64,000 nucleotides of DNA from an uncultured Coriobacteriaceae bacterium. Its GTDB lineage: Bacteria; Actinomycetota; Coriobacteriia; Coriobacteriales; Atopobiaceae. The DNA is taken from contig CACYWP010000016.1 in the NCBI GenBank assembly GCA_902778135.1, forward strand, positions 1 through 64,000. The letters are read 5' to 3'. Below the pieces are notes generated by a model. That model saw only the letters and a program-made list of their open reading frames with translations. It was not told the DNA's origin and searched no databases. The translations under genes and the position numbers were made by a program. The stretch's first letter is position 1. Each line of letters starts with the position of its first letter. This document shows positions 1 through 5,225 of this stretch, piece by piece.

Positions 1-755
<755 letters not shown>

Positions 756-2353: not shown

Positions 2354-2485
2354 TTCAAGCGTATCGTGGTGCTCGAGAACGGCGCCGTCGTGGAGGACGG
2401 CACCCACGCCGAGTTCAGCCGCGCGGGCGGCACCTACGAGAGCCTCTGGGACCGCCAGACCGGAGCCTTCCTCGAGGCGGAGTAA
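2354..2485 (+). pseudogene. Relic: C-terminal tail of the same ABC exporter
   Basis: In frame from 2354 this stretch encodes the last ~44 residues of an ABC exporter ([19 protein letters not shown] ... ending FLEAE-stop). It is nearly identical to the tail of the broken gene at 1-755, with only a few substitutions. Nothing upstream of base ~2354 matches an ABC domain. It is a fragment, probably left when the region between two exporter copies was rearranged or replaced by the ATPase gene. No start codon or ribosome site serves it. Confidence 0.75.
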
Positions 2486-2509: not shown

Positions 2510-3024
2510 CTAGCTTCCCAACGTGAACGCCGCGTAGAGGGGCAACCCTGCCAACGTGCAGCCGGTCCCCTCGATCACCGACTCCGAGTAGTTCTGCTCC
2601 GAGAGTCGGTGCTCCTTCGGCGCGCAGCCCTCCTCGACGAGCCTCCTCGGACTCCTCGCCCGCACGTTCCGCCCCGACTTCACCTCCACGGGGACCACCT
2701 CGGCACGCCCCGTCTGGTAGACGAAGTCCACCTCGCCGCTCCCCACCGTGGGCTTCGGCATCCAGTAGAACGTCTCGACCCCGTTTGCCGTAAGCGCCTG
2801 CATGACCGCGTTCTCGGCCAGGGCCCGCGGAAGTCGCTCGAGAGGACGTCCTGGAGCTCCGGGTCGAGGTAGATCTCCGCGCCCACGCGGAACTTCCGGA
2901 ACATCAGGCCCGTATCCGCGACGTAGGCCTTGAAGTAGCTACCCTCCTCGTCGTTGTACGGCGCGAAGGGGAAGCGCGTGTCACACGTGAGGTCGTTCAG
3001 CGTCACGATACTGCTGCCGCACAT
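2510..3024 (-). pseudogene. DUF4143 ATPase, C-terminal fragment with frameshift
   Basis: Two overlapping reading frames together give the C-terminal half of a DUF4143-type ATP-binding protein. The upstream frame has KAYVADTGLMFRKFRVGAE and ends its homology at SDFRG. The other frame resumes with ALAENAVMQAL, then GEVDFVYQTG and VVPVEVKSGRNVRARS, the nuclease-like core usual in the family, and runs to the natural C-terminus (LPLYAAF). The two join if one base is missing near 2825, in a GGGCCC run. The AAA N-terminal half is absent. It is read as a degraded gene; a base-call error at the frameshift is possible, but the missing N-terminus is real. Confidence 0.75.
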
Positions 3025-3110: not shown

Positions 3111-3290
3111 TCAACTCTTGCGATAGACCGTATAACAGACGCTTCCGAAGATGAACAGGGCTACGCCACCCGTCACGAGGGCGGACAGCATCCAAGAGCC
3201 TGCCTCGGGACCGTACAGGCCAAAGAGCACCAAGAAGACGCTCACCACCATGCAAGCCAGGCCTGCCATCTTCACCACGGTCTCGCTCAC
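3111..3290 (-). CDS. Small two-helix membrane protein (possible immunity or accessory protein)
   Basis: This is a 59-residue ORF starting with GTG at 3290 behind a strong AGGAGG. Its start overlaps the stop of the upstream ABC exporter frame (GTGA), so the two are translationally coupled. It has two hydrophobic segments, about residues 7-27 (ACMVVSVFLVLFGLYG) and 34-52 (MLSALVTGGVALFIFG), and a short basic tail (YTVYRKS). I recognise no family. Small two-helix proteins next to double-glycine peptides and exporters are often immunity or accessory factors, which is the inference here. It is the last gene of the minus-strand peptide/exporter cassette. Confidence 0.6.
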   Translation of the reverse strand: MSETVVKMAGLACMVVSVFLVLFGLYGPEAGSWMLSALVTGGVALFIFGSVCYTVYRKS

Positions 3291-4858
3291 GCTACCTCCT
3301 CTTCGCTTCGGATCCTGCGTGCGGCCAAGGCATCAACCATGCGCGCGTAGGTGTCGCCAGCCTCAAGCAGTCTTTCGTGGGTTCCCATCTCCACCACCGA
3401 GCCGGATGCAAGCACCACAATCTTGTCCGCGGAACGAATCGTCCTAACTTGTGGGCAATGACCAGCGTGGTCTTGTCCTGGCACAGCTCTGTCATGGCCG
3501 TCTGGATGGCGCTCTCGTTATCGGCATCAAGATTGGCCGTCGCCTCGTCCAAGATCACGACAGGCGCGTCCTTCAGAATGCAGCGTGCAATGGAAATCCG
3601 CTGGGCCTCGCCACCGGAAAGGCTCGCCCCACCCTCGCCGACGATGGTGTCAAACCCATACGGCAGCCGCTGGATGAAGTCGAAGCACTGCGCACGGCGT
3701 GCAGCCTCCTCCACCTCTTCCCGCGTGGCATCGCGCTTGCCAAACGCGATGTTGTTGAACACCGTGTCCTCAAAGAGGTACACCCGCTGAAACACCACGC
3801 TGAGCTGCTCCATGAGCACGGCAAGCGGAAGCTCGCGCACGTCAACACCGTTCAGCAGGATCTCCCCATCCCAAACGTCCCAAAAGCGGGCGAGCAGGTT
3901 GGCGATGGTCGTTTTGCCCGATCCGCTCTGGCCCACCAGGGCAACGGTCTGGCCCGCATCGGCCGCAAAGCTGATGCCATGCAGCACCTCCTCATCCGTA
4001 TAACCAAAGCGGACGTCCTTGAATTCCAGCACGGGGATACCTGCCGCCACGGGTGGCAGCCCCTTGGTCCCCTGATCCTCAAGCTGGGGCTCGTCGAGCA
4101 CCTCCTCCAGACGGTTGAGCGCCGTAGACATGATGGATATCTGGCTGCTGAACCCGTACAGGTGCTTCAACGGCCCAAAGAGGTTGAACGCAAAAAGCAA
4201 GACGCCCATGAACATCGCAAGCTGCAAGCTGCCTTGCTCAAAGAGCCGAATGGAGGCCGCCATGATGCCCGTCATACCCAGACCGTACACCACATTCAGG
4301 CGACGGTCCCACGGAGAGTGATTGCGCTCAAAGGCGAGGTTCGACTCAGTCATGTCAGAAAAGGCCTGCCTCAGTTCTGCCGCACCGTCACTCGTACGGT
4401 TGAAGCTCTTGATGACTCCGATGCCCTCGGTGTATTCGAGAATGGCAGCCGTAAGGTCTTCGATCGACTGCTGTCGCCGGTCAGAGTCATCCTCGCTTTC
4501 GCGATGCATGAACTGAGCCACCACAACAGCCAGCACGACCGTAGCCAGGCCGATGCCTCCCACCACGGGATGCAGCCAAAACAGAAACGCAATCATGAGC
4601 GCTTCCGAGAAGATGTCGCTCATCAACTCTGCGAGCACCTGCATGCTGTGCTCCTCGATGAAAACCATGTCATTCGAGAGCACCGAAGAGATTCTGCCTA
4701 TGTTCCCCTCGCTGAAGTATCCCATGGGCAAACGTCGCAGATGGTCAGCCAGCTTCAGACGCACGTCTGCAAAGAGCTCGTACCCGGCGCTTGACTGCAG
4801 GCGGTCCGCAATGTTCTGGAATACCGACTGAAGGGCGCCCGCGTTGCCCCGGGCGCCT
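3287..4858 (-). pseudogene. ABC exporter (permease-ATPase), N-terminally truncated and frameshifted
   Basis: This is an ABC half-exporter with a transmembrane domain (from GYELFADVRLKLADHLRRLP) followed by a nucleotide-binding domain with Walker A (GQSGSGKTT), signature LSGGEAQR, Walker B and LDEATANLD. The first one or two membrane helices and the start codon are missing. Homology begins about 4850 and runs back without a start into the stop region of the preceding peptide gene, so a deletion probably fused them. A second lesion near 3438 shifts the frame after AHKL; the tail resumes as RTIRSADKIVVL and ends EEEVA at 3287. An internal GTG at 4764 could start a shorter product lacking the first helices. 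It was probably the exporter for the peptides at 4880-5118. Confidence 0.8.
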
Positions 4859-4879
4859 GCCGCTGTACTCTGTTGGGGC

Positions 4880-5047
4880 TTAGAACTGGAGGGAGTTGTA
4901 GTACTGGATGACGTAGTCGTAGTACTCGTCGGCGTTCTCGTTCCCCTCGAGGAAGGAGAACTTGTCGAGGACCTGCTCGAGGCTCATGCCGGTCTTCTTC
5001 CAGATGTAGACGAACGAATCGATGTTGTACTTCTCCAGCTCGGTCAT
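4880..5047 (-). CDS. Small acidic peptide, second ORF of a possible split RiPP/bacteriocin precursor
   Basis: This is a 55-residue ORF beginning MTELEKYNIDSFVYIWKK and ending YYNSLQF. It is rich in acidic and aromatic residues and has no signal peptide. Its ATG overlaps the stop of the upstream 24-residue ORF (ATGA). If one base is missing in the run GGCGGGGCGGC at about 5050, both ORFs form one 79-residue precursor: a leader ending in GG followed by this segment as core. As it stands it could be translated by coupling. I recognise no family. Directly downstream lies the truncated ABC exporter. Confidence 0.5.
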   Translation of the reverse strand: MTELEKYNIDSFVYIWKKTGMSLEQVLDKFSFLEGNENADEYYDYVIQYYNSLQF

Positions 5048-5118
5048 GCCGCCCCGCCGGCGATGTCCTCGAGAAGGTCCTCGGGGATCTCGACGCCCTC
5101 GAACTCGCGCTCTGCCAT
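5044..5118 (-). CDS. Double-glycine-type leader peptide (24 residues)
   Basis: This ORF of 24 codons starts at 5118 behind AAAGGAAG and encodes an acidic peptide ending IPEDLLEDIAGGAA. The pattern of hydrophobic and acidic residues before Gly-Gly is that of leader peptides cut by C39 or related proteases during export of bacteriocins and RiPPs. The leader ends only two residues after GG, so either the core was lost to a frameshift or the core is the overlapping 55-residue ORF. It lies first in the minus-strand cassette with an ABC exporter. Confidence is high for the leader-like motif and low for the product. Confidence 0.5.
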   Translation of the reverse strand: MAEREFEGVEIPEDLLEDIAGGAA

Positions 5119-5164
5119 GATGGTCGCTTCCTTTCGTTGGTGGCTGCCCGCCCTTTGCTTATTA

Positions 5165-5225
5165 ATACGCGTCACAGGCCGTTCCGTCCCAGCAATGCCG
5201 GAGACACGCCACAGGCCGTTTCGTC
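5165..5225 (-). repeat. Two ~22-bp direct repeats upstream of the leader peptide
   Basis: The sequences at 5165-5188 and 5202-5225 share the core CACAGGCCGTT and flanking bases, with about three mismatches and a 37-bp period (between three and four helical turns). They lie roughly 50-110 bases upstream of the leader-peptide start. They could be tandem sites for a regulator; direct repeats are known for LytTR-type regulators of peptide operons. No such regulator gene is in the window. Confidence 0.4.

Follow-up and report, generated by a model that had tools for sequence, protein, structure and literature searches.

The apparent export cassette at this locus consists of two unrelated broken genes that were brought together by rearrangement. 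One is a single gene for a double-glycine (GG) leader peptide, split into open reading frames of 24 and 55 residues by a 5-bp duplication. The other comes from the 3′ terminus of an ECF(MptD)/ABC operon that has nothing to do with the peptide, and is represented by an exporter fragment and the gene for a 59-residue membrane protein. The window, by which we mean the whole 64,000-nucleotide stretch of DNA that was analysed (C16:1-64000), belongs to a host genome of 3.17 Mb that its relatives place in Coriobacteriia, and the features listed in the first-pass annotation, namely the frames, their ATGA and GTGA overlaps and a truncated, once-frameshifted exporter, are all present in its sequence. 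We hold with considerable confidence that the peptide has a GG-leader gene structure, that it is separate from the window's exporter, and that it is a member of a C39-exported family.

A peptide gene split by a 5-bp duplication

The 24-residue frame from the ORF list, MAEREFEGVEIPEDLLEDIAGGAA (5044..5118, minus strand), immediately follows an RBS-like GAAAGGAAG and is made up of the 22-residue double-glycine leader MAEREFEGVEIPEDLLEDIAGG, with the pattern I(-12) L(-7) I(-4) GG, an out-of-frame AA and a stop codon. The 55-residue frame (4880..5047, minus strand), which overlaps the first through ATGA, is identified from the ORF list and the alignment of relatives as the core of the GG peptide; it has a net charge of -6 and no Cys. 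Alignment of the window with two close relatives (L007 and L004) reveals a tandem duplication at the Gly codons, GGCGG-GGCGG on the minus strand (5049..5058; CCGCC CCGCC on the plus strand), of a 5-bp unit that occurs as a single copy in both relatives. What had been annotated as a one-base split is therefore a +5 shift between leader and core, after which the leader terminates at AGGAA and a stop, and the core is left on its own ATG, which is the first core codon in the close relatives.

The reading of the first frame as a GG leader is supported, and intact members with a fused leader and core exist elsewhere. Searching with the window core uncovered relatives in four genomes of the family besides the host. 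In two genomes other than the host, a core of 82-87% identity is preceded by the same leader. Both close relatives carry a single unbroken frame of 75-77 residues, composed of the 22-residue double-glycine leader and a core of about 55 residues. Specifically, the L003/L007 precursor reads MAENEFEGVEIPEDLLNSIAGG-MTAQEKYNIDSFVYIWKKTGMSLDQVLDKFSVLEGNENADEYYSYIIQYHNSLQF in one frame, with a core identity of 87%, and in L004, from the same genus, the leader is fused to the core likewise and an early TAG falls two codons short of the usual end. A strong hairpin is located 3′ of the peptide gene in the window, L007 and L004 (3/3). In the window this terminator-like hairpin spans 4834..4857 (minus strand), and the alignment shows that its U-tract, kept in the relatives, was removed by the exporter-fragment junction. 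Among the three closest cores, dN/dS ranges from 0.21 to 0.88, which is a weak sign of constraint.

Because the duplication leaves the leader without cargo and at best produces a leaderless core, the window copy should not be exported, and it is probably a young pseudogene. The earlier suspicion that this copy is probably dead, drawn from the N-terminal truncation and frameshift of the exporter, is thereby supported.

An exporter fragment from an ECF/MptD operon

The exporter frame (3287..4833, minus strand) is what remains of the 3′ part of a gene for an MsbA-like ABC half-transporter, the second ABC gene of an ECF/MptD operon, and is 84% identical to L078 1981-3732. It lacks the first 69-70 residues of the intact homologue and is frameshifted near 3442-3448, and its homology ends at 4833, within the tail of the peptide gene's terminator. 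The 59-residue two-helix membrane protein (3111..3290, minus strand), which starts at a GTG that shares the sequence GTGA with the stop codon of the exporter, is encoded by the conserved last gene of the same operon and shares 78-79% identity with its counterpart in a same-genus genome. An intact exporter homologue in same-genus genome G127 (L078; 584 aa, 84% identical) is an MsbA-like half-transporter that has no C39 peptidase. The operon there runs in the order TetR-like, MptD-type ECF S component (TIGR02185, 96 bits against a cut-off of 76.45), EcfT-like, EcfA-ABC half-transporter fusion, ABC half-transporter and 59-residue protein, where the EcfT-like call is based on position and sequence and NCBIfam gave no match. 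The two ABC genes and the 59-residue gene recur in this order in other genera (L081-L084). No GG peptide lies beside the intact exporter and 59-residue gene of L078. An MptD-family (TIGR02185) ECF operon with two ABC half-transporters is thus the source of both window genes, although the window holds just the last 1.7 kb of such an operon, truncated and frameshifted. The conserved position of the gene for the 59-residue membrane protein at the end of MptD-type ECF/ABC operons offers a hint at their subunit make-up.

The surroundings of the peptide gene in its relatives bear on how these parts came to be adjacent. A different ABC gene, convergent with the peptide gene, has its tail about 75-80 bp past the peptide stop both in L007 and in G129 (L004/L046). 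The window carries a copy of this same kind of exporter-gene tail at 2360..2485 (plus strand), and again at 630-755. Between 2486 and 4833 lies an insert that holds the remnant of a DUF4143-type ATPase gene (2510..3024, minus strand; weak Pfam match), the 59-residue gene and the exporter fragment. Since the peptide gene of the relatives adjoins another ABC gene, and the exporter and 59-residue genes have an operon of their own, the apparent cassette is a product of rearrangement. The initial proposal of a peptide-exporter-immunity cassette must be abandoned, given that close relatives have the different, convergent ABC gene beside the peptide, and that the peptide frames have proved unrelated to the exporter, the very outcome named beforehand as refuting it. 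Likewise, an immunity role for the 59-residue protein is unlikely because it belongs to the ECF/ABC operon; among the loci read, it neighbours a GG peptide solely in the host genome.

It seems appropriate to consider whether the window might nevertheless hold a working or formerly working unit. We judge it very improbable that the split frames still function, with ATGA coupling yielding a leaderless 55-residue core on purpose. A start codon does overlap the preceding stop, and the core does retain 82-87% identity to its relatives, but that ATG is merely the first core codon of the close relatives, in which leader and core are fused, and duplications of 5 bp are commonplace as mutations. The idea that the host genome contains a decayed, dedicated cassette of peptide, exporter and immunity genes draws on the shared strand, the tight spacing and the stop/start overlaps, yet it is scarcely credible given that this exporter adjoins the peptide in neither close relative, that the exporter and 59-residue pair sits in an ECF/MptD operon elsewhere with no GG peptide by the intact same-genus copy, that the intact homologue is MsbA-like and has no C39 peptidase, and that the junction falls within the peptide's terminator.

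Other irregularities are evident nearby. ATPase genes are flanked on one side by an ABC exporter gene and on the other by a duplicate, about 110-126 bp long, of that exporter gene's 3′ tail, both in the window (630-755, 757-2175, 2360-2485) and in L046 (8285-8400, 8796-10052, 10108-11913). The tail-flanked ATPases are of the ATPase_2 type by Pfam in the window and DUF4143-like by eye in L046, and the duplicates look as if single-gene insertions had copied the end of their target. Furthermore, an identical stretch, GGCGTTGACGTCCTTGTGAGGCAG, breaks the reading frame within two ABC genes of the host (window 431-463; L086 437-460). Both contigs begin at the same point of that ABC gene, so the stretch may stem from assembly or from a repeat.

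A peptide family with predicted three-helix cores

The window peptide is a member of a Coriobacteriia family that has no curated model and that combines a GG leader with an acidic core, predicted to form three helices. Three weak matches to the leaderless core (the host's own C1 paralogue, G083 and G080) all have a GG leader that ends where the core starts (3/3). Class-wide profile searches returned matches in 19 and then 41 genomes, many of the 41 being leader-only. The cores have in common K..G.(S/T) and a last helix rich in Y/W, and they are mostly net negative and free of Cys. When a core-only HMM was built with the window core left out, that core came top against a background of about 5265 ORFs, at E 8.7e-9, and the same model found two more GG-led members present in the background set. 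Several divergent members (L014, L031, L034, L035, L099 and L100) fell individually below significance in this leave-one-out test.

The first-pass annotation recognized no family for either the peptide or the 59-residue protein, and indeed no known family exists for either. Pfam, NCBIfam and PHROGs provided no family for the window core, and curated class II bacteriocin, NHLP and Nif11 models gave weak, mostly leader-type matches that did not reach cut-off. When a sample of the phylum beyond Coriobacteriia was searched with the core profile, no convincing match emerged, tblastn against plasmids and phages produced no match, and literature searches turned up no account of the family. A Herbaspirillum match (L008; 29 residues, 52%) was taken as chance. 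AlphaFold predicts the core, from a 15-row alignment, as three compact helices (pLDDT 96.4, pTM 0.80). Foldseek/VIA comparison with the PDB yielded no significant fold, the best Z of 5.2 being within the range of common helical arrangements. Sequence matches in the PDB were chiefly to designed helical proteins and were put down to composition, and the resemblance to DUF732 phage proteins, at E 0.6, was weak and was set aside. Two family members have a common neighbour (L056 5077-6459; L057 9443-10768; 70% identical) with KTLVVMRHGKA near its start, possibly a phosphohistidine phosphatase.

Proposed export and function

Residues -4, -7 and -12 of the leader are hydrophobic in 23/23 family leaders, including that of the window, although the leader search pattern itself required -4 and -7, such that the unbiased cases are the core-only matches L002, L005 and L006. 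The C39 protease LahT150 binds V-4, L-7 and L-12 of its leader and cuts a substrate that retains just the last 13 leader residues (PMC6363468). The family leader is in frame with its cargo core in L007, L004 and other relatives, and out of frame in the window. Judging from these leader sequences, intact members would be cleaved and exported by C39 exporters.

Candidate exporters are available in the same genomes. C39 exporters are encoded at three places in the host (C1, C2 and C7 of G000), all away from the window locus, and those scanned exceed the cut-offs of the NHLM_ABC1/ABC2 models. C39 is found in 72/398 genomes of the class. It occurs in 38/41 genomes matched by the family profile versus 34/357 others, and in 12/12 genomes with the strongest full-length members; these counts ignore kinship, and many of the 41 are leader-only matches. 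Within the read stretch of 16 family loci there was no C39 exporter (0/16), and we therefore infer export in trans for most members. In L125, L127 and L128, members of a divergent subfamily immediately precede NHLM HlyD-like (TIGR03794, below cut-off), ABC1 and ABC2 genes on their upstream side, and a fourth locus (L126) has a subfamily match at a matching distance from NHLM genes. This subfamily is joined to the core family by profile comparison alone (hhalign E 2e-4, probability 45%). In L129, a core member resembling L014 is separated by about 0.6 kb from a further NHLM gene cluster, to which it is divergent. Separately, GG-leader precursors with other, larger cores adjoin the NHLM exporters of the host (L042 13190-13621; L044 10510-10908).

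The family resembles the GG peptides of class II bacteriocin type in its short leader ending in GG, its hydrophobic -12/-7/-4 positions, its cargo of about 50 residues and the presence of a C39 exporter in the genome. It is unlike them in that its mostly acidic, three-helix core falls into no curated family, and in that an exporter or immunity gene is usually not adjacent. There is also a likeness to the NHLP/Nif11 precursors with NHLM exporters (TIGR03793-03797); such precursors have been described at sites far from their modification and export genes (Haft 2010, PMC2887384). The leader end is similar (the leader is matched by a Nif11 protein of the PDB at E 0.012), some members are linked to NHLM HlyD-like, ABC1 and ABC2 genes, and precursors are often away from export genes. 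However, the family leader has about 20 residues rather than 70-83, the core is mostly without Cys, and no modification enzyme was recognized at the family loci read. Nif11-like GG precursors with Cys-containing cores adjoin three-helix members in L013 (719-1449) and L005 (985-1383).

We propose that the intact members are served by an ABC exporter of the NHLM type that has a C39 peptidase and whose gene usually lies at a distant locus. The exporter would bind the amphipathic leader helix via hydrophobic -12, -7 and -4, cut after GG, and release a mostly acidic three-helix mini-protein of about 50-55 residues. Relatives do carry a genuine arrangement of GG peptide and C39 exporter, with an NHLM-type exporter in place of the window's own. 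Once secreted, the mini-protein probably affects nearby cells, and a role as a narrow, bacteriocin-like antagonist is likelier than one as a signal. We give antagonism about an even chance, arguing solely by analogy with the class, from the patchy distribution, from the presence of several divergent copies in a genome and from the weakness of purifying selection.

An entirely intracellular life for the family, in which the leader-like segment serves as an uncleaved docking helix of a three-helix domain, would suit a core predicted to be stable, acidic and soluble and the absence of an exporter next door to most members. We consider this unlikely in view of the C39-type leader positions in all members, the co-occurrence with C39 exporters, the NHLM operons linked to some members, and the weak matches of the leader to several bacteriocin/NHLP/pheromone models. 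A role for the exported protein in cell-cell signalling is a real if somewhat doubtful prospect. The GG peptides of C39 exporters have roles in cell-to-cell communication as well as competition (PMC7018657; PMC6363468), the cores are mostly acidic and soluble, and no immunity-like gene was seen beside members, but no regulator or sensor gene recurs beside them either, and several divergent paralogues are present per genome.

With the false peptide-exporter-immunity cassette removed, what takes its place is a testable family of small acidic three-helix proteins that have leaders of the C39 type, that no curated model covers, and for which the same genomes offer candidate exporters. It may be, and we put the matter no higher than evenly balanced, that Coriobacteriia living in gut communities deploy a dispersed repertoire of three-helix mini-proteins with GG leaders, that a few NHLM/C39 exporters serve this repertoire in trans, and that the proteins act as secreted effectors that are folded and unmodified. 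If true, these dispersed mini-proteins would represent an uncharacterised class of secreted effectors.
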